Virus record (IMG/VR): IMGVR_UViG_3300045936_000120
Span: 1 to 34,160 of that record
Strand: one strand, 5' to 3'
DNA from: a virus
DNA: 34,160 bases
A program made the translations under genes and the position numbers. Within the stretch, counting starts at the first letter, position 1, and each line of letters starts with the position of its first letter. The notes beneath the pieces were generated by a model. That model did no database searches, had not been told where the DNA came from, and was given only the letters and a program-made list of their open reading frames with translations. This document shows, piece after piece, positions 2,550 to 32,329 of the stretch.

Positions 2550-2807
2550 CTATGAGGGTGGCTCGCTGTCGCCTTTTTTGTTTTCGGGCTCGGCGTCTAC
2601 CCATGCCATCGCGCATTCATGGCATTTTTGCCGCGCGGGCGTCTCATCGCTCTCGTGGACGCCAAGAATCCAGACCGACCAATGTCCGCATTCGAGAGTC
2701 AATTGGTTTGAGCAGATATTGTACGGCTCACTCGCCGTAACCGCCCGGTCGAATTCGCCGGCGTCGAGCTTGCGCCGGGCTTCGAGGATGCGTTCGGCGC
2801 GGGTCAT
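2550..2807 (-). CDS. Small Cys/His protein, putative zinc-binding
   Basis: An 85-residue leftward protein. LTLECGHWSVWIL followed by CHECAMAWV gives a C-x-H ... C-x-x-C ligand set, the same pattern as in the proteins at 12398 and 24682 (V-x-x-x-CGH ... C-x-x-C). The N-terminus is a short charged helix (MTRAERILEARRKLDAGEFD) and the C-terminus is Glu/Lys-rich. Its ATG (2805-2807) overlaps the stop of the upstream gene, so the two are translationally coupled. Zinc binding is inferred from cysteine spacing; the function is unknown. Confidence 0.6.
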   Translation of the reverse strand: MTRAERILEARRKLDAGEFDRAVTASEPYNICSNQLTLECGHWSVWILGVHESDETPARQKCHECAMAWVDAEPENKKGDSEPPS

Positions 2808-3085
2808 TTGTGGACCAGGCGTGTAGTGATCCGCTCATTCAGGCGGGTTTCCATGTTCGCCATATCCGTTCGCACGCTGGATATTTCAATCTTCAGGCGG
2901 CTTTCCATGCTCGCCATATCCGTTCGCGCGTTGGATATTTCAATTTTCAGGCGGCTTTCCATACTTTCCAGTTCTGCCTTGAATCGGCGGCCTTCCGTAA
3001 TCAGAGCCCACAATACCGGGCCGGTAATCGTGGTCAGGAATAGCCCGCCAAACGCTAATATCAACTTCCAGGATTCCGCGTTCAT
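2804..3085 (-). CDS. Membrane-anchored coiled-coil protein, holin-like topology
   Basis: A 93-residue protein if started at the ATG that overlaps the upstream stop codon (ATGA); a GTG four codons upstream is also open. Residues 5-30 form one hydrophobic membrane segment (WKLILAFGGLFLTTITGPVL). The rest is a coiled coil made of 18-residue repeats (SMESRLKIEIS-N/S-x-RTDMA) encoded by 54-bp direct repeats at 2840-2947. One membrane helix with a long charged cytoplasmic or periplasmic coil resembles some holins and small phage membrane proteins, and the product at 16018-16263 has the same architecture. No endolysin is recognised nearby, so lysis is only a suggestion. Confidence 0.65.
   Translation of the reverse strand: MNAESWKLILAFGGLFLTTITGPVLWALITEGRRFKAELESMESRLKIEISNARTDMASMESRLKIEISSVRTDMANMETRLNERITTRLVHK
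2840..2962. repeat. 54-bp tandem repeat inside the coiled-coil gene
   Basis: Units 2840-2893 and 2894-2947 are close copies (CAGGCGG-TTTCCATG ... GATATTTCAAT), followed by a third partial unit. 54 bp equals 18 codons, so gains or losses of units lengthen the coil by five helical turns without a frameshift. Confidence 0.9.
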
Positions 3086-3225
3086 TTCTTGCCCCACCGC
3101 TTAGCGGCCGCCTGAGCCGCTATCTCTTTGCGCCGCTCAGGATTCATCTGAGCGAATCCCTTCGGAACTTTCTTTTTCCCGCCGAGCCGGCCTAACGCCA
3201 CTGCAGCCGGATTTTTCTTTGCCAT
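3082..3225 (-). CDS. Short basic protein (AAVALGRLGGKK type)
   Basis: A 47-residue protein. It begins MAKKNPAAVALGRLGGKKK, continues through a helix (MNPERRKEIAAQAAAKRW) and ends GKK. Such small basic proteins with the pattern NPAAVALGR-x-GG-K ... M-(N/T)PE-x-R-x-EIA-x-x-A-x-x-RW are common in phage and environmental genomes; their role is unknown, possibly nucleic-acid binding. A related motif (DPAAVALGKRR ... MTPDEALEFHRAGAKA) occurs in the gene at 10184-10678. This is the first gene of the leftward cassette and its TGA overlaps the ATG of the next gene. Confidence 0.7.
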   Translation of the reverse strand: MAKKNPAAVALGRLGGKKKVPKGFAQMNPERRKEIAAQAAAKRWGKK

Positions 3226-3639: not shown

Positions 3640-3836
3640 TGAGCGTCCAACAGATAGCACGCGAGCTGCGCGACTACATGCTCGACCGCTACGAGGGCAA
3701 GCTCCTCGCGGTCGAGCTCGCCTGGGAATGGCTGGAAGATAACCCGAAGTACTTCGGGTTTGACGGCTGGACGGAGAATCTGCCGATCGAGCCGCCCGAC
3801 GCGTTCATCGCCGCCTACTACGGAGGTGTCGCCTAA
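3639..3836 (+). CDS. Small early protein, unknown function
   Basis: A 65-residue acidic protein. The start is set by TAATG overlap with the previous stop and by GGAGG ten bases upstream. It starts with a helix (VQQIARELRDYMLDRYEGKL) and is rich in Trp/Tyr further on (AWEWLEDNPKYFGFDGWTEN). No recognised family. Its stop again overlaps the next ATG (TAATG), showing tight translational coupling within the early run. Confidence 0.75.
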   Translation: MSVQQIARELRDYMLDRYEGKLLAVELAWEWLEDNPKYFGFDGWTENLPIEPPDAFIAAYYGGVA

Positions 3837-4381
3837 TGCCCGCACTCAGAATCGTTACCGACAAGCCGGTCGAGTGCCGGCTGCTCTCAACCGACGGCGC
3901 TTCGGCGCCGTCAAACTTCGGCGTCGACCAGATCCGTTACCGGACCGATCTCGGCGATCTGTATGTGTCGCCCGCGGTCGGCGCAATCATCGCCGAGGCG
4001 ATCGCGAAGCACGGCATCGAAGCCGGGCGCGTGATCCGGGTGCTTAAGGCTACGGTGCCCTTGAGCAATGGCCGCAAGGGGATTCGGTGGTCGATTGAGC
4101 CGGTTGGAGCTGTCAGCAGTCAGCAATCAGCGGTCAGCGCATCAGCTCCGGTTGCCGTGCCGGTCGAGATCGACCGGAAACCGCCGCAGCCTGCGCCCGC
4201 AGCTCGCCCGCAGTGGGCCGATGTCCTGCTGGCGCAAACGAACCTGCTGGCGGACGTCTATGCCGCTGCGGTGGCGCATTCTTCGGCCACGCACGGCAAC
4301 GCCGTTCGCCCTGAAGACGTTCGGGCCATTATGACAACCGCTTTTATCAATCTGTCGAAGGGAATCAATCATGCAGCCTAA
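3836..4381 (+). CDS. Early two-domain protein with heptamer-encoded linker, unknown function
   Basis: A 181-residue protein. Residues 1-90 form a compact beta-rich domain (YRTDLGDLYVSPAVGAIIAE), and residues 128-181 form a helical domain (WADVLLAQTNLLADVYAAAV). Between them lies a Ser/Ala/Pro-rich linker, part of which (SSQQSAVSASA) is encoded by forward heptamers at 4111-4146. The forward arm is stop-free in every frame, so the insertion is tolerated. The arrangement, a small folded domain, flexible linker and C-terminal helices, recalls phage DNA-binding accessory proteins encoded beside a RecB/Cas4-like nuclease, but no family is certain. Confidence 0.75.
   Translation: MPALRIVTDKPVECRLLSTDGASAPSNFGVDQIRYRTDLGDLYVSPAVGAIIAEAIAKHGIEAGRVIRVLKATVPLSNGRKGIRWSIEPVGAVSSQQSAVSASAPVAVPVEIDRKPPQPAPAARPQWADVLLAQTNLLADVYAAAVAHSSATHGNAVRPEDVRAIMTTAFINLSKGINHAA
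4111..4146. repeat. Heptamer run, F5, inside a coding sequence
   Basis: Five forward units, the last one eight bases long (GCATCAGC). Only the stop-free orientation is present. Confidence 0.95.
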
Positions 4382-8329: not shown

Positions 8330-8541
8330 TTTTAATCAGATTTGGTGTGTGGAAAACTTTTGGGACGCTGCCCGAACTCGTTGGGGCTTCCAAAAAACGA
8401 AGACGTGTGGTACTGTTCTGGAATCCGCCTCTTCCTGCCGTTGAGACGGAAATTTGAAAACTATGCGCCGCACGTCCATAAAAACGAAAGCCCCGAGGTG
8501 CAAACTCAGGGCTTTCAGAACGTGCTGGCCGAGCATTGCGG
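8330..8541. other. Intergenic region between divergent genes
   Basis: About 210 bases, more AT-rich than its neighbours, with no heptamer array. It contains the hairpin at 8487-8515. It sits between the J-like gene and the replication gene, so it could hold the replication origin, but I see no clear iterons. Confidence 0.4.
8487..8515 (-). terminator. Hairpin with a leftward T-run
   Basis: AAAGCCCCGAG (8487-8497) and CTCAGGGCTTT (8505-8515) pair except for one C/A mismatch, with a seven-base loop. On the minus strand it is followed by CGTTTTTATG, so it would stop leftward transcripts; on the plus strand there is no T-run. Confidence 0.5.
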
Positions 8542-9807
8542 ATGTCTGCAACCAGCACACACAGTTTACCACGCGACCGTTCCAATCAGAGTAGTTTTTC
8601 TGCGAATTTTCAACGCAGCCGCCGTCATCAACATCGCTATGGTCCGCCGCCCGAGCTGGCTGATGCTCCACTGAATCCGCTAATCGGACTGCGTCGGTTT
8701 ATCGACGATACGCCTCTCGTCGATGGACACATGATTCCGGCGAAGATCGGCGCGTATTTGGCCCGGCTTGCGGAACTCGCTCACGGTTACGGCGTCTGTA
8801 CGGTCTCTGTCGAGCATCTTGCCGTCAAGGGCCACAGATGCGAGCGGACGATCAAGCGTCACACGAAGTATTTGCGCGAACGCTACCTGATCACCGTCAA
8901 TCCGCGATTGCGCGAAAACGGAAGCTGCACGACCAATGAAATCCGCATCAGCTGGGATAATCCCTTTTTTGACAAACATCTTCGAAATCGTTGTGTGGCC
9001 GAAACTTCCGCCTCCGGTACAGTGACAAAAGAGTCACCCCCAGACGAGTCTACTGTGGCTATGGATGGGTGTCAGTCTCCTTCGTTGGTGGAAGAGAAAC
9101 TGACCGACCCGAAAACCGAGCCGATCCATGAAACCAAACAACAACCGCCCAATAAGGCGCAATTGTTTGATAACGTATATTCTGAAAATGCCGCCGAAAC
9201 ACCAATAAAAACGCCTGTTTTCGAGCCCGACGTCCAGCACGTCCAAGCCTTCCGGCAAACCCTCGCCAACTGGTTCGGCGTCGCCGTGTCGTTCCAGACA
9301 ACGCTGTGGCTGTTGTGCTTCATGACCGTGCGGCGCTGGAATATCCGCGCATTCCTGTGCGATGTCGACCACAACCACAAGCCGCGCCTGTTCCACTCGC
9401 AGGACGCCGCCTGGCGCTTTATGGCCGCCGATTACCTATCGCGCGGCCCCACGCTCGAATCCTATCCGCCGGCAAAACGCGACACGCAAACGGTTGCGCC
9501 GATGGAGCAGTCAGCGATCAGCGTTCAGCAATCAGCCGAGCATCCGCCGCCGGAATCGCCGCCAGTGAGGCCGAAACGTATGACGCAAATATCATCGGGT
9601 GTTCTGAAATTCGTCGCGCCGCCTGCATCGTCCGAGCGCATCGCCGAACTATGCGCCGAGGCCGGAATTACCGAGGATCAATTGATTCGATGGATGCGGA
9701 AGAGGAGGGATGACGGCTATGCGGGATATCAGCCGCCAATGTGGCCGCCTGGCGAAAAGCAGGTGAGGCAGATGATTCGCGAGTATGGCGATGCGCATCC
9801 GGGCTAA
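8542..9807 (+). CDS. Replication initiator-like protein with winged-helix domain
   Basis: About 421 residues from ATG 8542 (a TTG two codons upstream is also possible). Residues about 60-130 (LVDGHMIPAKIGAYLARLAE, HGYGVCTVSVEHLAVKGHRC, ERTIKRHTKYLRERYLITVN) look like an HTH_36-type winged helix found in plasmid and phage replication proteins. A low-complexity linker (about 155-230) follows, then a second folded part with an AFRQTLANWFGV helix and a Trp-rich core. A forward heptamer run (9509-9536) encodes EQSAISVQQSAEH in another linker. A C-terminal helical domain (RIAELCAEAGITEDQLIRWM) recalls helicase-loader tails. The stop overlaps that of the convergent zinc gene. Role in replication is inferred. 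Confidence 0.65.
   Translation: MSATSTHSLPRDRSNQSSFSANFQRSRRHQHRYGPPPELADAPLNPLIGLRRFIDDTPLVDGHMIPAKIGAYLARLAELAHGYGVCTVSVEHLAVKGHRCERTIKRHTKYLRERYLITVNPRLRENGSCTTNEIRISWDNPFFDKHLRNRCVAETSASGTVTKESPPDESTVAMDGCQSPSLVEEKLTDPKTEPIHETKQQPPNKAQLFDNVYSENAAETPIKTPVFEPDVQHVQAFRQTLANWFGVAVSFQTTLWLLCFMTVRRWNIRAFLCDVDHNHKPRLFHSQDAAWRFMAADYLSRGPTLESYPPAKRDTQTVAPMEQSAISVQQSAEHPPPESPPVRPKRMTQISSGVLKFVAPPASSERIAELCAEAGITEDQLIRWMRKRRDDGYAGYQPPMWPPGEKQVRQMIREYGDAHPG
9509..9536. repeat. Heptamer run, F4, coding
   Basis: Four forward units in frame in the replication gene, in a Pro-rich linker. Confidence 0.95.
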
Positions 9808-10214
9808 GCGGATCGTTCGCGTGGCTCGGAGATGCCGCTCTGCCGCCAGTTGCTCACAAGCGGGAATCGTGGCTGTTCTGGTGGTCGCTGAAGGCGGAAC
9901 AGAAAAATACCGAGCGACATCCAACCTATCGGGCATTGGCAGAATCGTCCATCGGCGCCGCCGGTCCCGTTGCAGTGCGGGCAGGCGAGTCTTTGAATGG
10001 ATTCAAGCGCCACGGCAAAAGGCCCAACTGGTTTCCGTTTTGGCGGCGGCGCATACTCACAAGCGATGCAAAGCCCGCCGAGGTACCGTTGTCCTGCCGG
10101 GATCAAGTTGCCGCATCGGGAGCAATATAGCGCGGCTTGGGATGATCCGCAGTTGATGCAAACGCCGCCGCGATAGGCATGTTTCAGCGAACTGAATTCG
10201 TAACAGAATTCCAC
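9804..10214 (-). CDS. Multi-zinc-ribbon protein
   Basis: A 136-residue leftward protein. Five C-x-x-C or C-x-C knuckles occur in order: CINCG (about residue 19), CSRCG (32), CIAC (49), CPHCNGTG (78) and CQC (92). The CPHCNGTGG box is like the zinc centre of DnaJ-type proteins, which is interesting given the J-like protein nearby. The part from residue 95 on is Pro/Arg-rich. Its stop (9804-9806) overlaps the stop of the convergent replication gene, and its start overlaps the end of the upstream leftward gene by about 31 bases. Function unknown; RNA, DNA or protein binding is possible. Confidence 0.65.
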   Translation of the reverse strand: MEFCYEFSSLKHAYRGGVCINCGSSQAALYCSRCGNLIPAGQRYLGGLCIACEYAPPPKRKPVGPFAVALESIQRLACPHCNGTGGADGRFCQCPIGWMSLGIFLFRLQRPPEQPRFPLVSNWRQSGISEPRERSA

Positions 10215-10678
10215 GGAGCTATCATAGCGGATCGCAGCCGCTCGAGCGCTTCATCGGACGCCGAGTCAAGCAACCGCGCGAGCTCGGATACATCGGGTGG
10301 TGGGGCAGGTGGCTCGCCCGGTGAGCCTGGCGGCTGATCGCTGACCGCTGACGGCTTCTGCCATGCCGGCCGCATGCGCCGCGTCCGCCAGGCGAGCATG
10401 CCGGACATGCGGCGCTCGAGCGGCGAGCGCTTCCGGTTTGAGGCCTGCACGGCCTTCGCGCCGGCGCGATGGAACTCGAGCGCCTCATCCGGCGTCATCT
10501 TCGCGATGCGCCGTTTGCCGAGCGCGACCGCCGCGGGATCCTTGCAGGATCCCGGGCGATCAGCGTTCAGCTTACAGCTTTCAGCTTCGGACGTTGGCTG
10601 ATTGCTGAATGCTGACCGCTGACCGCTCTTTTCCACAGCACGATGATACATGCTCGAAAACTGAATTTCTAGTGTCAT
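10184..10678 (-). CDS. Basic protein with AAVALG motif, interrupted by in-frame arrays
   Basis: About 164 residues from ATG 10678; the frame is open further, to 10774, and the true start could even lie after the array. The folded part is DPAAVALGKRRIAKMTPDEA, then LEFHRAGAKAVQASNRKR, a relative of the 47-residue protein at 3082-3225. Before it lies a whole translated heptamer array (10558-10627), in which the TGA expected in this frame is TGT (Cys). A second run of heptamers (10333-10356) encodes PSAVSDQP in a Pro-rich linker before a C-terminal acidic helix (ELARLLDSASDEALERLRSA). Function unknown. Confidence 0.55.
   Translation of the reverse strand: MTLEIQFSSMYHRAVEKSGQRSAFSNQPTSEAESCKLNADRPGSCKDPAAVALGKRRIAKMTPDEALEFHRAGAKAVQASNRKRSPLERRMSGMLAWRTRRMRPAWQKPSAVSDQPPGSPGEPPAPPPDVSELARLLDSASDEALERLRSAMIAPWNSVTNSVR
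10333..10356. repeat. Heptamer run, R3 on the plus strand, coding on minus
   Basis: Three GCTGANN units plus GCT. For the minus-strand gene this is the stop-free orientation. Confidence 0.9.
10534..10554. repeat. Perfect hairpin beside the array
   Basis: CGGGATCC and GGATCCCG form an eight-base-pair stem with the loop TTGCA, next to the array at 10558 and inside the leftward gene. Confidence 0.6.
10558..10627. repeat. Heptamer array, F4 / R4, translated on the minus strand
   Basis: Plus-strand forward units 10558-10585 include TTACAGC in place of a TCAGC unit; reverse units 10597-10627. Read leftward, that base change turns TGA into TGT in the frame of the gene at 10184-10678. Confidence 0.95.
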
Positions 10679-11304: not shown

Positions 11305-11706
11305 GTGTCAACCTCCCCCAAAAAGTTGTTACTCGTCTGCGACTCCATGTCGAGTCTCGTCGTCGCCAAAGTCTCGGCGCGCAATGCCGCCCGCATGCTC
11401 GAGCTCGGCCAGGTCCGGCTTGATCAGGAGGGGCATCTGCGCGTAGCAGTGCCCGACCGGGCGCACGAGCATCCTTGCCGCACGCGCATCTCATCGGGCG
11501 GCGTGCTCGCCGCGCTCGGCATGTCGCAGATTTATACGGCGAAGGATGAGCGCGGCAAGGTCGCGGGCTTCAAGCGCATCTACCCCGAAGACCGCGGCTT
11601 CTTCAATCTCGCGACCAATCCCGGCAACTGGATAATAGCGATCAGCTTTCAGCTTATTAGCAGTCAGCTATCAGCGATCAGCTATCAGCTTTGCGTTTTT
11701 GGCTGA
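11305..11706 (+). CDS. Unknown protein with heptamer-encoded C-terminus
   Basis: A 133-residue protein starting GTG at 11305, with GGAG about nine bases upstream; ATG at 11347 is a weaker option. The core (VAKVSARNAARMLELGQVRL ... RISSGGVLAALGMSQIYTAK ... YPEDRGFFNLA) is a mixed alpha/beta domain I do not recognise. After NPGNWIIAIS the protein is encoded by forward heptamers (FQLISSQLSAISYQL) and stops at the first TGA of the reverse arm. It opens the rightward run that leads to terminase, so a small-terminase or regulatory role is conceivable but unsupported. Confidence 0.65.
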   Translation: MSTSPKKLLLVCDSMSSLVVAKVSARNAARMLELGQVRLDQEGHLRVAVPDRAHEHPCRTRISSGGVLAALGMSQIYTAKDERGKVAGFKRIYPEDRGFFNLATNPGNWIIAISFQLISSQLSAISYQLCVFG

Positions 11707-11768
11707 ATGCTGACCGCTGATTGCTGATTGCTGACCGCTGAAATGCTGACCGCTGACTGCTGAAAGCT
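11640..11768. repeat. Large heptamer array, F / R8
   Basis: Six forward units with a TTATTAGC irregular unit, the loop TTTGCGTTTTTG, then about nine reverse units, one of them eight bases long (GCTGAAAT). It ends at the ATG of the next gene (11769). Confidence 0.95.
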
Positions 11769-18082: not shown

Positions 18083-18085
18083 AGC

Positions 18086-18154
18086 TGTCAGCTATCAGCG
18101 GTCAGCTAAACCGCACGTCGAAAGCTGAAAGCTGACTGCTGACTGCTGAAAGCT
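18086..18154. repeat. Heptamer array, F3 / R4
   Basis: Forward units 18086-18106, spacer TAAACCGCACGTCGAAA, reverse units 18124-18154, directly before the ATG at 18156. Confidence 0.95.
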
Positions 18155-18254: not shown

Positions 18255-18259
18255 AAAGC

Positions 18260-18343
18260 TGTCAGCGGTCAGCTATCAGCGGTCAGCAATCGGCGATCAG
18301 CCAAACGCAAAAGCTGAGCGCTGAATGCTGACCGCTGAAAGCT
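18260..18343. repeat. Heptamer array, F6 / R4
   Basis: Forward units 18260-18301 with one AATCGGC variant, spacer CCAAACGCAAAA, reverse units 18313-18343. Confidence 0.95.
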
Positions 18344-18347
18344 AAAT

Positions 18348-18686
18348 ATGGCAACCGGAATGCTGTACAAATCCGATATGCCAGTAGTTGAGAATCTCCG
18401 CCTGTTCACCCGCGTCCGCATCAGCGGCCCGCCCGGCGTCTGCGTCGGCAGGATCGAGGATATCCGCGGCATCAACGAATTGCCGCCCGCGCCGGGCTTC
18501 GCGGAAATGAAGATCGTGAACGCGATCATGCGCGACAAAGGCGTGACGCGCCTGGCGCTCGTGAGCTACTTCATGACCGAGCACCAGGAAGTGGCGTTTA
18601 CGGCGGTCGAGATCGCGGGCGAGTGGTTCGATCTGAACGGGCAGGCGTTGACGCTCGAGGTGATCGGGCAGGCGAGGGTGAATTGA
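18348..18686 (+). CDS. Unknown head-region protein
   Basis: A 112-residue protein with a beta-barrel-like pattern (LRLFTRVRISGPPGVCVGRI, then VTRLALVSYFMTEHQEVAFT, then LNGQALTLEVIGQARVN). Lies between portal and the Mu F-like gene and overlaps the latter (TGATG), so it is likely made with the head proteins. No family recognised. Confidence 0.6.
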   Translation: MATGMLYKSDMPVVENLRLFTRVRISGPPGVCVGRIEDIRGINELPPAPGFAEMKIVNAIMRDKGVTRLALVSYFMTEHQEVAFTAVEIAGEWFDLNGQALTLEVIGQARVN

Positions 18687-19564
18687 TGGCTAGCTATCAG
18701 CAATCAGCGATCAGCGATCAGCCAAACGCAGAGCTGAAAGCTGACAAGCTGAAAGCTGATCGCTTCGCTACCCAATTCGCGCGCTTCCTCGAGCGCGAAG
18801 AGTCGCGATGGGTCCGGCCGGCCGCCGTCGTCCTCGCGCGGGAAGGGGCGAGGGCGGCTGAGGCGTACCAGCAGGGCGGCGAGGGCGCGGCGCTTAATTC
18901 CGTCGATGAACGGGAGTGGGAACGCTACCTCGAGCGTGTCTGGCTCTCTGTCGTGCCGCGGGCCGGCGAGTTTACGACGGATCAGATTGGCGGTCAGCAA
19001 TCAGCGATCAGCGGTCAGCTAAACGCAAGGCTGAATGCTGACAAGCTGAAAGCTGATAGCTTCGTCAAAGAGCCGCCCGATCCGTTTCTTCAGGCTGCGA
19101 TCAATTGGCTCAAGTTGAACATGGCCGAGCGGGTGCAGGGCATTACGCAAACCTCGAAAGAGGAAATCGGCAATCAGATCCGCATCGGCGTATCGAAGGG
19201 CGAAGGCATCGCCGACATTGCGGCGCGGATCGTGAAGCACAGGCGGTCGATCACGCCCGAGCGGGCGCAGACGATCGCGAGAACGGAAGTTCACGCGGCG
19301 GCGAACTACGGATCGCTCGTCGCGGCCGAGCTGGTAACGGTTCCGATGGAAAAAATCTGGATCGCGCGTGCGGATGCGCGAGATTCGCATAGGGCGGCGA
19401 GCGGTCAACGGCGGGCGCTCGATAGCTCGTTCATCGTGGGCGGTTACCGGTTGATGCACCCGGGCGATTCGTCGTTCGGGGCGCCGGCGGGGTTGGTTGT
19501 GAATTGCCGCTGCGTGATGTCGTTTGAGGTGAAGCGGAGGGAGCGGCGCAGAAGGGCTGCGTAG
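18686..19564 (+). CDS. Mu F-like minor head protein with two translated heptamer arrays
   Basis: 292 residues, start fixed by TGATG overlap. The C-terminal domain (ITPERAQTIARTEVHAAANY, KIWIARADARDSHRAASGQR, GYRLMHPGDSSFGAPAGLVV, NCRCVM) is the phage head morphogenesis domain of Mu gpF and SPP1 gp7, which enters the prohead with the portal. Two arrays are translated in frame: residues 3-27 (YQQSAISDQ ... LKADKLKADRF) and about 103-126 (QQSAISGQ ... LNADKLKADSF). Each reverse arm has one eight-base unit (GCTGACAA) that shifts phase; without the extra A both would read AGC-TGA. The protein therefore survives two insertions that should truncate it. Confidence 0.9.
   Translation: MASYQQSAISDQPNAELKADKLKADRFATQFARFLEREESRWVRPAAVVLAREGARAAEAYQQGGEGAALNSVDEREWERYLERVWLSVVPRAGEFTTDQIGGQQSAISGQLNARLNADKLKADSFVKEPPDPFLQAAINWLKLNMAERVQGITQTSKEEIGNQIRIGVSKGEGIADIAARIVKHRRSITPERAQTIARTEVHAAANYGSLVAAELVTVPMEKIWIARADARDSHRAASGQRRALDSSFIVGGYRLMHPGDSSFGAPAGLVVNCRCVMSFEVKRRERRRRAA
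18694..18764. repeat. Translated heptamer array, F4 / R4 with +1 unit
   Basis: Forward 18694-18721, spacer CCAAACGCAGA, reverse 18733-18764. The second reverse unit is GCTGACAA. Confidence 0.95.
18992..19061. repeat. Translated heptamer array, F4 / R4 with +1 unit
   Basis: Forward 18992-19019, spacer TAAACGCAAG, reverse 19030-19061. The second reverse unit is again GCTGACAA, followed by the same GCTGAAA. Confidence 0.95.
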
Positions 19565-21596: not shown

Positions 21597-21605
21597 TAGG
21601 AAAGC

Positions 21606-21666
21606 GATCAGCAGTCAGCGGTCAGCAATCAGCTAGCTGAATGCTGAAAGCTGATCGCTGAAAGCT
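21606..21666. repeat. Heptamer array with the shortest loop, F4 / R4
   Basis: Forward 21606-21633, spacer TA, reverse 21636-21666. With the two-base spacer it is the most compact inverted repeat in the window and follows the capsid gene, where a terminator or mRNA-stability hairpin would be useful. Confidence 0.95.
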
Positions 21667-21670
21667 CTCT

Positions 21671-22066
21671 ATGGCAAACGATCTGAACCTATTCGAATCG
21701 GAACTGAGGGCGCTCGAATCAACGGGCGCCCGCATGCCCTTGACGCTCACGCCGCGCGAGGCCTGGGCGCTGTTGATGATCCTGCAAAACGCCGTACTGC
21801 TGCGGCTCACGGATACGCCGGACGATCAGGGCTTCGCCCGTGGGCTCGCCGACGAGATCGAGCAGCGGCTGTGTAAAACGCCGGCGATGAAGGAACGCGC
21901 TGAGGCGGCGTCGAAGAGTCCGCAATGGACGACGCCGAAGGCGCCGGCGCCGGAGGATGTCTGCGGAACCGAGCCGCCGGAAGCGGTGCGCGACGATCTG
22001 CGGATTCGCGAACCGAAGCCCGAGCCGGAAAAGCCGCCGGCAAGGCGCGTAACAAAACGCCGATGA
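21671..22066 (+). CDS. Unknown protein following capsid
   Basis: A 131-residue protein. Helical N-terminal half (NDLNLFESELRALESTGARM, LTPREAWALLMILQNAVLLR), then a Pro/Lys/Glu-rich tail (EPKPEPEKPPARRVTKRR). Position after the capsid would suit a decoration or accessory protein, but the disordered tail is unusual. Overlaps the next gene (ATGA). Confidence 0.6.
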   Translation: MANDLNLFESELRALESTGARMPLTLTPREAWALLMILQNAVLLRLTDTPDDQGFARGLADEIEQRLCKTPAMKERAEAASKSPQWTTPKAPAPEDVCGTEPPEAVRDDLRIREPKPEPEKPPARRVTKRR

Positions 22067-22200
22067 AGCCGAAGAAAAAACGGAAACCCGAGCGGACGCC
22101 GCAGAATAAGGCGATGGAAGCGCCGGAAAACAAAGCTGTCAGCTATCAGCAATCAGCGGTCAGCAAGCCGCCGTTGCGTCCGCCTGTTCGCAAAAGCTGA
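22063..22200 (+). CDS. Short basic protein with array-derived segment
   Basis: A 45-residue protein: MKPKKKRKPERTPQNKAMEA, PENKAVSYQQSAVS, KPPLRPPVRKS. The middle is encoded by forward heptamers (22137-22164) and the stop is the first TGA of the reverse arm. It is coupled to the previous gene by ATGA. Strongly basic, no fold; could be a C-terminal piece of its neighbour split by a frameshift. Confidence 0.45.
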   Translation: MKPKKKRKPERTPQNKAMEAPENKAVSYQQSAVSKPPLRPPVRKS

Positions 22201-22226
22201 AAGCTGATCGCTGAAAGCTGAATGCT
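22137..22226. repeat. Heptamer array, F4 / R4, coding on one side and giving a start on the other
   Basis: Forward units 22137-22164 (coding), 31-base spacer, reverse units 22196-22226. The final GCTGAAT-GCT supplies the ATG at 22222. Confidence 0.95.
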
Positions 22227-23103
22227 TCTGGCTGTCGATCTTTTTTGCGGTTTAGGCGGCTGGGCCGAAGGATTCATCGCCGAAGGCTACGACGTGATCG
22301 GATTCGATATCGAACGCCGCCCGTATCCGGCGCAACTCGTGCTTCAGGATGTGTTGACGCTCCACGGCTCGCAATTCCGCAATGCCGCCTGCATCGTCGC
22401 CTCGCCGCCCTGCCAGGCGTACTCCTACCGCGCCATGCCGTGGAAGAAAGCCAAGGCGCTGCCGCCGCCCGATAACGCGCTGTTCGAGGCGTGCTTCCGC
22501 ATTCAGCGTGAGGCGTCGGAAGCCGCTGGGCGCTACATCCCGATGGTGGTCGAGAACGTCTGCGGCGCCCAGCGGTGGGTGGGTTCGGCCAAGTGGCACT
22601 ACGGCAGCTATTACCTGTGGGGCGATGTGCCGGCGCTGATGCCGTATGCCCACTCGAAGACGATGAAGGCTACTGGACCACAGAATGCCAACGGAGAGCT
22701 GCATCGGCAAAGTATCAACAAGATGAGAGACTGCCTGAAAAACGACTGGCTCAAGGTGAACGGCTTCAACTTCCACGAGCACGAGAAGACCGGCAAGCCG
22801 GGCCGCTCGTTTCAGTCGGCGGCGGTCGAGAATACGGGCGTCAAGGTGGCTGGCCTGAACTGGAGCGGATCGGACAAGCCGGGCTACAAGGCCCAGGCGT
22901 TCAATTCGACGGCGGAAGCGCGGATGCGGGACACCAGCGACGGTCTGAAATTCGGCGGCGGCTGGTGGCACGACGCGACAAACAACCTGATCCGCAAGGC
23001 GTCCTCGCGCTCCAGTGCCCGCAAGCAGGCATCCGCGCTGATCGCCAAGATTCCGTTTCCGCTCGCGGCGCATATCGCCCGCGTTTTCAAAGCTGAATGC
23101 TGA
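22222..23103 (+). CDS. DNA (cytosine-5) methyltransferase-like protein
   Basis: A 293-residue protein. Motif I is AVDLFCGLGGWAEGF (SAM binding), motif IV is ASPPCQAYSY with the catalytic Cys at residue 64, and motif VI is VVENV (Glu 111). Family enzymes transfer a methyl group to C5 of cytosine. It is shorter than most and the QxRxR motif VIII is not evident, so target recognition may be unusual or activity limited. The ATG and the stop (FKAEC, then TGA) both come from heptamers. It sits between capsid and connector genes, so it is likely expressed late, possibly to protect DNA before packaging. Confidence 0.85.
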   Translation: MLLAVDLFCGLGGWAEGFIAEGYDVIGFDIERRPYPAQLVLQDVLTLHGSQFRNAACIVASPPCQAYSYRAMPWKKAKALPPPDNALFEACFRIQREASEAAGRYIPMVVENVCGAQRWVGSAKWHYGSYYLWGDVPALMPYAHSKTMKATGPQNANGELHRQSINKMRDCLKNDWLKVNGFNFHEHEKTGKPGRSFQSAAVENTGVKVAGLNWSGSDKPGYKAQAFNSTAEARMRDTSDGLKFGGGWWHDATNNLIRKASSRSSARKQASALIAKIPFPLAAHIARVFKAEC

Positions 23104-23122
23104 TAGCTGATCGCTGAAAGCT
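23092..23122. repeat. Heptamer run, R4
   Basis: Reverse units only; gives the last codons and TGA of the methyltransferase. Confidence 0.95.
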
Positions 23123-24898: not shown

Positions 24899-24926
24899 GG
24901 TCAGCAATCAGCATTCAGCTTTCAGC
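24899..24926. repeat. Heptamer run, F4
   Basis: Forward units only, ending directly before TATG of the next gene. Confidence 0.95.
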
Positions 24927-24927
24927 T

Positions 24928-25635
24928 ATGACGCCGTATTACGAGCACGCGGGCATCACGATCTATCACGCGGATGCGCGTGAAGTCGTTTCCCGCATTC
25001 GAGTCGATGCTGTTATTACAGATCCGGTCTGGCCGAATTGTGAGCACGTATTTCCAGGCATCAATGCGTCCGAGGTTTTCCGCGGGACGGTTGAGCAAAT
25101 CAATGCAGACCGTATCGTTGTTCAACTCGGATGCCATTCTGACCCGCGTTTTTTGGCTGGTGTCCCGGAGCGATGGCCCTACATCCGCACTTGTTATCTG
25201 GAGTACGCCGTGAAGGGCTATCTTGGGCGCGTATTGAAAGACGCCGATGTTGCCTATGTTTTCGGCGATCCGCCGCCAGCTAAGCAAGGGGCTCACGTGC
25301 TGCCGGGATGGGTTATCGCGACAGTAGCCAATGGTGATCGTGGGTGGGGTAAAGCCGGGCGGACGACGGAGCAAGTAGAGGCTGTCGTTTCCAGGCTTGC
25401 GCATCCCGCGTCGCGGAATCTTCAGCATGTGCGATGGCTTGTGAAATGGTTCGGAGGGGACTCCGTGCTCGATCCATTCTTTGGCATTGGGACAACTGCT
25501 GTGGCGTGCAAGATTCTAGGAGTGCGCTGTGTTGGCATCGAAATCGAGGAGCGTTATTGCGAAATCGCCGCCGAGCGGTTGCGGCAAGAGGTTCTGGAAT
25601 TCACGCCGCCCGCGTTGCTGACCGCTGATTGCTGA
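24928..25635 (+). CDS. DNA N4-cytosine/N6-adenine methyltransferase
   Basis: A 235-residue protein with the beta-class motif order. The catalytic motif IV comes first, TDPVWPN (residues 31-37; the usual form is DPPY or DPPW), and the SAM-binding motif I comes late, LDPFFGIGTT (181-190), followed by GVRCVGIEIEERYCEIAAER. A second DPPP (114-117) is probably not catalytic. The Pro-to-Val change in motif IV keeps the D, W and P that matter most. The family methylates exocyclic amino groups in short DNA sites. Last residues (LLTADC) and stop come from reverse heptamers. No restriction partner is present. Confidence 0.85.
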   Translation: MTPYYEHAGITIYHADAREVVSRIRVDAVITDPVWPNCEHVFPGINASEVFRGTVEQINADRIVVQLGCHSDPRFLAGVPERWPYIRTCYLEYAVKGYLGRVLKDADVAYVFGDPPPAKQGAHVLPGWVIATVANGDRGWGKAGRTTEQVEAVVSRLAHPASRNLQHVRWLVKWFGGDSVLDPFFGIGTTAVACKILGVRCVGIEIEERYCEIAAERLRQEVLEFTPPALLTADC

Positions 25636-25647
25636 CCGCTGACAGCT
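25617..25647. repeat. Heptamer run, R4
   Basis: Reverse units only; gives the stop of the methyltransferase at 25633-25635. Confidence 0.95.
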
Positions 25648-26753: not shown

Positions 26754-26783
26754 CTGAAAGCTGATTGCTGATCGCTGAATGCT
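26753..26783. repeat. Heptamer run, R4, supplies a start codon
   Basis: Reverse units only. GCTGAAT-GCT gives the ATG at 26779. Confidence 0.95.
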
Positions 26784-27204
26784 ACCGTTAACGGAAGTCC
26801 AGACCGCGATCTACAACGCGCTCACGCCCGCGCTTGCGCCCGTTCCGGTCATCGATCAGGCCGGGCCGAACCAGGAATACCCGTACTGCACGATCGGCGA
26901 ATTCGTGGGCGGGCATGACGATCTGCTCACCGAGCAGGCGGTCAATCTCGACGTTACGGTGCATTGCTGGTCGCGCCAACCGGGCATGCAGGAATGCCAG
27001 CAGCTCATGACGAAGGCGAAGGACGCGATTGACCGCGCCGTGCTGCCGGTGACCGGCTTTCAATGGGTCACGACGATCTGGACCTACGCGCAGACGCTGC
27101 GCGAGCTGGACGGCGAAACGCGGCACGGCATTTTGCGGTTTAGCGTGATGACGTTTAAGGAAGCTGTCAGCGTTCAGCAGTCAGCGGTCAGCTTAACGCG
27201 CTGA
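26779..27204 (+). CDS. Tail completion protein, DUF3168-like
   Basis: A 141-residue protein. LTEVQTAIYNALTPALAPVP, VIDQAGPNQEYPYCTIGEFV, LLTEQAVNLDVTVHCWSRQP and AKDAIDRAVLPVTGF ... VTTIWTYAQTLRELDGETRH, GILRFSVMTF follow the DUF3168 (lambda gpU/HK97 gp11-like) pattern, a tail terminator. The ATG is inside the preceding array. The C-terminal EAVSVQQSAVSLTR comes from forward heptamers; the natural end is probably at FSVMTFKE. Confidence 0.82.
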   Translation: MLPLTEVQTAIYNALTPALAPVPVIDQAGPNQEYPYCTIGEFVGGHDDLLTEQAVNLDVTVHCWSRQPGMQECQQLMTKAKDAIDRAVLPVTGFQWVTTIWTYAQTLRELDGETRHGILRFSVMTFKEAVSVQQSAVSLTR

Positions 27205-27724: not shown

Positions 27725-27729
27725 GAAGC

Positions 27730-27853
27730 TGTCAGCGATCAGCGGTCAGCGGTCAGCGAGGTAGCGATCAGCAATCAGCGATCAGCTATCAGCTAAAACG
27801 CGCTGAAAGCTGAATGCTGAAAGCTGAATGCTGAAAGCTGAATGCTGAAAGCT
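27730..27853. repeat. Large heptamer array, F8 / R8
   Basis: About eight forward units (two blocks separated by GAGG), spacer TAAAACGC, then reverse units that alternate GCTGAAA and GCTGAAT four times. The alternation is the most regular stretch of the window and suggests recent slippage in 14-bp steps. Confidence 0.95.
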
Positions 27854-28327: not shown

Positions 28328-28623
28328 CGCTGCGCGAGATCGCCGTATTGATGGAAGCGCGGGATGCACGCGAAACGCGTAACGACTGGTATACCGCGCG
28401 GGTTGTCGCGATGCTCGTAGCGGTTAATTCCAAGCACGGCAAGTATGAGCCGCGAAAGTACATGATGAACGGAAAGCGCCTTCAGGAACGGGCGGAGCGC
28501 GACCGGCGCGAGCGCGAGCCGATGACGGGCGAACAGGTGCTCGCGCGATTTCGGCAGTTGGGTGTGCGGGTGATAGACAAGCGGAAAGGAGCGGTCAGCG
28601 ATCAGCAATCAGCAGTCAGCTAA
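28201..28623 (+). CDS. Tail assembly chaperone, second frame (gpT-like), reached by frameshift
   Basis: The -1 frame is open from after TAA 28198-28200 to TAA 28621-28623. From 28228 it reads APPRWTFDRWLGIWAVLRDG, CGVSASEFCNLTLREIAVLM, EARDARETRNDWYTARVVAM, LVAVNSKHGKYEPRKYMM, a strong protein sequence with the WTFDRW ... LTLREIAVLMEA pattern of gpT-like extensions. Its first start codons (TTG/ATG at 28348-28351) come too late to include that part, so a -1 shift from the upstream frame is the best explanation. No classical X-XXY-YYZ slippery site is visible; the overlap is GGCGGCGGCGAAGG-rich. The last 12 residues come from forward heptamers. Confidence 0.7.
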   Translation, partial: RSAPYEGGGEGAPPRWTFDRWLGIWAVLRDGCGVSASEFCNLTLREIAVLMEARDARETRNDWYTARVVAMLVAVNSKHGKYEPRKYMMNGKRLQERAERDRREREPMTGEQVLARFRQLGVRVIDKRKGAVSDQQSAVS

Positions 28624-31881: not shown

Positions 31882-31902
31882 GGTCAGCTATCAGCTTTCA
31901 GC
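31882..31902. repeat. Heptamer run, F3
   Basis: Forward units at the 3' end of a leftward gene; the matching reverse run is on the far side of that gene at 32299-32329. Confidence 0.95.
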
Positions 31903-32268
31903 TTTGCGCCGTGCTTCAATCCGCTCGTGCAGCTCGCGGAAGTGGGCTTCAACCTCTTCGCCCGGAATCAACTTCACTTTGCCGCTTTTGATGTCATCAT
32001 ATCGGCGGTCCAACTCTTCGGCGATCAGATTCTTCAGGCGTAGTCCCGTTCCATCAGTTATAAGGCTGCGGCCGCACTCGCACTTATATACATGGGTCAT
32101 GCCGCCCATTTGCAGTGCGTCTAGAAGTAATTCTGCTGCGTCGTCGCTGAGCGTTGTCACGGCTCGCAGGATTTCCTTGAGGGCATCGTCATCCGTCGCA
32201 TCAGTTCCTTCGTAGATGTTTGCTTGGACCGCTTTTACGATCTCGATCGCATGAATCATGCGCTTCAT
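31891..32268 (-). CDS. Leftward protein inserted between tape measure and tail tip, unknown function
   Basis: A 125-residue acidic protein. The first 55 residues are helical (EIVKAVQANIYEGTDATDDD, ALKEILRAVTTLSDDAAELL), then a CECG knuckle and a charged helical tail (EELDRRYDDIKSGKVKLIPG, EEVEAHFRELHERIEARR). The last residues (KAES) and stop come from the array. It is opposite in direction to the tail operon and bounded by a forward arm on one side and a reverse arm on the other, so it may have entered as a cassette. No function recognised. Confidence 0.6.
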   Translation of the reverse strand: MKRMIHAIEIVKAVQANIYEGTDATDDDALKEILRAVTTLSDDAAELLLDALQMGGMTHVYKCECGRSLITDGTGLRLKNLIAEELDRRYDDIKSGKVKLIPGEEVEAHFRELHERIEARRKAES

Positions 32269-32298
32269 TGTAGCGGTTCCGTTCGTTGCAGGTTTGTA

Positions 32299-32329
32299 GC
32301 TGATCGCTGACCGCTGATTGCTGATCGCT
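32299..32329. repeat. Heptamer run, R4
   Basis: Reverse units, ending five bases before the tail-tip ATG at 32334. Confidence 0.95.

Follow-up and report, generated by a model that had tools for sequence, protein, structure and literature searches.

How can the gene for a phage head protein stay open through two repeat arrays of a kind that, when intact, stops translation in every reading frame? The window analyzed here is an entire IMG/VR record of an uncultivated phage (IMGVR_UViG_3300045936_000120, 34,160 bases), with genes for a terminase, a portal, a Mu F-like head protein, a prohead protease, a capsid and a tape measure. The original prediction placed two arrays in frame in the Mu F-like gene, and both were found there, with exact limits at 18692–18764 (A1) and 18989–19061 (A2). 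The answer that we propose, and consider quite probable, is that a palindromic insertion element multiplied in this phage lineage and that its complete copies persist in coding sequence only with a change that opens the frame.

The repeat element and its frame rule

Both arrays belong to a family built of the unit TCAGCNN, in which NN is variable, arranged in two opposed arms. The typical element of about 72–73 bp reads AGCNN(TCAGCNN)3TCAGC, followed by a loop (e.g., TAAACGCAAA) and the mirror arm GCTGA(NNGCTGA)3NNGCT, the TCAGC (forward) arm thus preceding the GCTGA (reverse) arm. The element thus runs from AGC to GCT, and its outer edge is sharp, AGC being present at 28 of 31 and 25 of 28 arm ends. 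The pattern TCAGCNNTCAGCNNTCAGC has 121 matches in the window on both strands versus none for the reversed control pattern; the abundance of the repeat is therefore not due to chance. Sixty-one arms in the window contain at least three units, and most arms are intergenic or lie at gene ends. Among the 2-nt spacers AA is the commonest (23 of 93) and CA is absent, while three forward arms of the window have 3-nt spacers (GCA, GGG and CTA).

The spacing of the reverse arm determines whether the element can be translated. Three successive GCTGA motifs at 7-base spacing place a TGA in all three frames and, because the element is also palindromic, an intact copy is closed in six frames and is untranslatable on either strand; the forward arms carry no stop. 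For an arm of four units, the 7-8-7 arrangement alone among the single +/-1 changes of spacing leaves a frame open. Reverse arms with at least four units were perfectly 7-spaced in 407 of 415 cases over all collected loci, a proportion biased upwards since many loci were gathered with a pattern requiring one 7-spaced arm. Over all loci, only five complete arrays turned up inside an open frame that reaches 80 codons, and three of them are A1, A2 and a third array of the window, A3 (see below); a further locus, L247, in which a CAA 7-8-7 arm lies near the end of a 173-codon open frame, was left out of this count. A general enrichment of the rescuing form was also considered and rejected: in viral contigs the 7-8-7 arrangement occurs in 11 stretches against 11 for 7-7-8 and 9 for 8-7-7, which indicates no general tendency towards it across these contigs.

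Two arrays in the head gene

The gene that holds A1 and A2 (18686–19564, plus strand) lies between the portal and the prohead protease/capsid genes and encodes a Mu F-like head morphogenesis protein of 292 amino acids (PF04233, E 9.4e-12; phrog_2468, head morphogenesis, E 7e-40). Both arrays are complete elements on the plus strand. A1 provides an N-terminal extension, residues 3–26 (fold −34.7 kcal/mol, z −5.2), and A2 is an in-frame insert of the linker ahead of the PF04233 domain (fold −37.6 kcal/mol, z −6.7). Each reverse arm contains, as had been predicted, one 8-base unit GCTGACAA (18740–18747 in A1, 19037–19044 in A2), giving a GCTGA spacing of 7-8-7 with the 3-nt spacer CAA in both cases. 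The open frame through A1 reads MASYQQSAISDQPNAELKADKLKADRF and that through A2 contains QIGGQQSAISGQLNARLNADKLKADSFV, so that the predicted head protein includes the array-derived stretches SAISDQPNAELK and LNADKLK. Deletion of any one base of the ACAA that ends the unit leads to a predicted stop at residue 21 (A1) or 120 (A2), and the frame of the flanks is conserved in relatives, which supports the claim that the added base is what holds this frame open. The identity of that base is less certain than was first thought: since AA is the commonest 2-nt spacer and CA is never seen, a C could have been inserted just as well as the proposed A.

The same unit had also been said to be missing between genes. 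This stands for the CAA unit, which within the window occurs only in A1 and A2, and fails for 8-base units in general, as an intergenic reverse arm at 11702–11763 contains one (GCTGAAAT); together with the three forward arms with 3-nt spacers, this arm shows that units of eight bases are found outside genes as well. Two intergenic elements near the head gene, at 18083–18154 and 18257–18343 (both unstranded), have unrescued reverse arms and serve as comparisons for A1 and A2. Other parts of the original prediction need to be revised. Both arrays had been placed inside the head protein, whereas A1 is at its extreme N-terminus and a third complete coding array, A3, is found elsewhere; the description of the head protein as essential was not supported.

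An error of assembly or sequencing, with the head gene in reality interrupted, is a very remote prospect. The region is repetitive and known from metagenome assemblies only, but the same base is seen at two sites and again in a second assembly from another metagenome (L009, a 17-kb contig). That contig is 99.96% identical to the window, carries the same bases in both arrays, including the two 8-base units, and differs from the window elsewhere in a single substitution and a 6-bp indel. Moreover, the frame downstream of the arrays is conserved with nine relatives.

We compared the head protein with its homologues, as had been suggested. A2 is absent from all nine homologous head sequences (L010, L011 and L272–L278; 41–76% identity in the best segments), and both of its flanks align with them in the same frame. 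A2 is therefore a lineage-specific in-frame insertion of about 21–23 codons, and the linker that it enlarges, ahead of the PF04233 domain, varies in length. Modelling of the head protein structure gave a poor result (mean pLDDT 55.6), with residues 88–131 below 50, and this low-confidence region would agree, weakly, with the placement of A2 in a linker.

The history of the A1 site is different. The N-terminus upstream of QFARFL is not conserved among the homologues; at the A1 site L011 has no array, and in L010 both arms are present, separated by a small gene of about 130 bp, and the head gene has its start codon inside the reverse arm. The lack of conservation and the position of the L010 start would fit a head protein that begins downstream of A1, leaving A1 untranslated. 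We regard this as improbable, because no in-frame ATG, GTG or TTG is available from 18686 to residue 90, which is well within the conserved part, the only other in-frame candidates being a TTG at 18683 and a GTG at 18623, both upstream. In addition, the ATG at 18686 is preceded by a purine-rich stretch and overlaps the stop codon of the preceding gene.

Other coding copies and the origin of the open frames

A3 is a complete element opened in another way. It lies at 10555–10627 on the minus strand, directly after the third codon of a conserved gene of unassigned function (10184–10636, minus strand; likely GTG start at 10636) that has 73% identity to its counterpart in the collinear relative G050 and a homologue in a second one, G051. 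These homologues came to light via the head gene; peptide patterns of the A3 gene revealed no viral homologues, and the gene has no match in Pfam or PHROG. The reverse arm of A3 keeps the 7-base spacing, and its second unit, the sole unit with an in-frame TGA, is changed from GCTGA to GCTGT. The insertion is in frame: the array-free gene of G050 starts with GTG GAA AAG GAA AAG GAC CCT, and the window gene reads GTG GAA AAG, the whole array, and then AAG GAT CCC. The two thus have GTG-GAA-AAG and KDPAAVALGKRR in common, with GAA between them in G050 and the complete A3 in the window.

Forward arms alone, which need no rescue, are also found in genes. One at 4113–4146 (plus strand), in frame in the gene 3836–4381, adds the 10-residue insertion AVSSQQSAVS and is absent from G050. 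Another at 9511–9536 (plus strand), in frame in a replication O-like gene (8536–9807), is shared with G050; its spacer bases differ between the two viruses, which suggests that this half-element is probably older than A2. Furthermore, forward arms provide C-terminal tails in five genes, including 881–1207, 26779–27204 and 28348–28623, which terminate before or within the reverse arm.

A single mechanism may account for these arrangements. A1 and A2 would be copies of a palindromic insertion element of about 72 bp that multiplied in this phage lineage. Because an intact copy would halt translation in all six frames, copies would remain between genes, at gene ends, where they may furnish new stop codons, or as forward half-elements, which are free of stops. 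Within a gene, a complete copy would survive only after a further change that opens the reverse arm, putatively one extra base in A1 and A2 (7-8-7) and a TGA to TGT substitution in A3.

The original prediction had left two routes to the open head gene, selection for the frame or the copying of one rescued array to the second place. That either A1 or A2 arose once and was copied to the other site by conversion or transposition, CAA being shared by descent, has in our judgment slightly less than an even chance. Among 136 pairs of short-loop elements the A1–A2 pair ranks first in similarity (0.877), and the two have an identical CAA spacer, one of several spacers seen in 7-8-7 arms elsewhere. Yet the next most similar pair is almost equal (0.868), only three of the seven other freely comparable dinucleotide spacers agree between A1 and A2, and their loop is family-wide. 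Since the A1 site of L010 already bears both arms, A1 at least would have a separate history, and A3 was rescued by another route. The existence of two kinds of opening change favors selection for an open frame over the copying of a single rescued array. Selection is thus the route that A3 backs and that explains the pattern, and copying between A1 and A2, to which their similarity points, is possible and unneeded.

Openness alone does not prove selection, as coding arrays are open by way of being found. Selection for open frames is instead supported by sequence comparison, namely by the conserved flanks and by the fact that none of the genes compared has a visibly truncated homologue. Neither a transposase nor a target duplication was identified, the empty sites in relatives being too diverged to define duplications; we therefore infer, rather than observe, that the element moves as a unit, and the same holds for its selfish nature and for the removal of unrescued copies by purifying selection. 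Several array sites are common to the window and its relatives while their spacers differ, and part of the pattern could accordingly reflect turnover of heptamers in place.

Spread of the arms and known systems

The window virus far exceeds its relatives in arms: counting those with three or more units, the window has 61, G050 eight and G051 two, and the more distant G052 has no matches. At one junction (27727–27853, an unstranded intergenic element) the distance is 117 bp in the window versus 8 bp and 14 bp in the two collinear relatives. A clade with 61, 8, 2 and 0 arms in related genomes is a system for the study of repeat multiplication.

This distribution bears on a further explanation, in which the phage keeps the elements as functional hairpins of RNA or DNA, acting in translation control or at transcription ends, with the coding copies as side effects. 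We think this unlikely. The predicted hairpins are stable (z −5.2 to −8.7), and for 12 of 28 reverse arms a listed gene start follows the arm end within 25 nt, compared with 0.7 expected at random; a similar placement near starts has been reported for the TAACTGA heptamers of Beggiatoaceae (PMC4679880). However, short gaps between genes by themselves put arms near starts, the close collinear relatives manage with eight or two arms, and an Rfam search gave no family match. A run of at least four T follows only 5 of the 61 arm ends, and on this count we rejected an identity as intrinsic terminators. We also note that some starts in the window lie inside a reverse arm (e.g., 22222, 26779 and 27842).

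Several genes of the window are located between opposed arms. A DNA methylase gene (24928–25635, PF01555) is framed exactly by a forward and a reverse arm (24901–25642) and, by gap lengths, is absent from the collinear G050 and G051. A gene that matches the PF09720 addiction-module antitoxin family (31891–32268, minus strand) has a forward arm on one side and a reverse arm on the other (31884–32329), and no homologue of it was found in G050 or G051. From capsid to head-tail adaptor (21603–23122), two extra genes have arrays on both sides, one of them with a weak match to cytosine methylases, where the relatives have 246 and 512 bp. The idea that arms are general markers of gene cassettes was unsupported by counts of arm order at long range. 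A 54-bp tandem repeat at 2838–2962, in a minus-strand open reading frame (2804–3097) where it gives the peptide repeat MESRLKIEIS..RTDMA, is unrelated to the heptamers.

Similar arrays occur, among the matches listed, across many bacterial phyla and also in numerous viral contigs. Cyanobacterial genomes G033, G035 and G036 (loci L211, L213 and L214) match the four-unit pattern about 950–1250 times, more than any other of the 49 genomes listed, and G035 also has many matches to the control pattern. Two viral contigs (L245 and L253) contain heptamers of a related yet distinct family (GTCAGCTTGTCAGC...), whose loop is rich in T. A Y1 transposase (PF01797) is present in 43 of 49 array-bearing genomes among the matches listed, yet G033, with 950 array matches, has none, and counts of this transposase do not obviously track those of the arrays. 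The literature searched contained no description of TCAGCNN palindromes. It is conceivable, although we would put it forward only tentatively, that they are undescribed and very widespread mobile elements of bacteria and viruses which burst in phage lineages, can carry genes between their arms and occasionally become coding through minimal frame-opening changes.

Four known systems invite comparison. First, Rickettsia palindromic elements (Ogata 2000, 2002), as outlined in PMC10969869, are small palindromes of about 150 bp that lie in frame in genes and add peptides at tolerated places, with a conserved internal open reading frame and peptide. The elements of the window resemble this outline in being in-frame palindromic insertions, A2 being absent from nine homologues and A3 from G050, and differ from it in their length of 73 bp, their 7-bp units with variable spacers, their phage host and their closure in all frames unless changed. 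Second, the TAACTGA heptamers of Beggiatoaceae and cyanobacteria are mostly intergenic near starts and consist in the main of one fixed 7-mer repeated directly; in work published in 2015, one orientation was noted to stop all three frames and the other to be open (LSVISYQ; for TAGCTGA, SAISYQL) (PMC4679880). Our elements have in common with them the 7-bp period, the all-frame stops in one orientation and the mainly intergenic location, whereas they are palindromic with two arms, combine a fixed 5-mer with a variable dinucleotide and have the closed arm translated once changed. Third, REP/REPIN sequences with RAYT transposases form many short hairpin copies, mostly intergenic and some within genes (PMC3733652). 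This also describes the elements of the window, which differ in showing heptamer periodicity instead of a GTAG or CGTC tag at the foot of the hairpin. Lastly, MITEs are small inverted-repeat insertions able to fuse with the reading frames of genes (PMC10969869); the inverted arms and the capacity for fusion are shared, and unlike MITEs no target duplication or parent transposon was identified here.

For these elements the survival rule of insertions in genes can be written exactly, and three survivors in one phage obey it via two changes; phage structural proteins, moreover, allow the cost of an inserted peptide to be assayed. The frame logic of heptamers, in-frame palindromes and REP sequences in genes were known already. 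The elements of the window resemble Rickettsia palindromic elements and TAACTGA heptamers and fully match the definition of neither, and what is new is the combination in a phage together with two kinds of minimal opening change.
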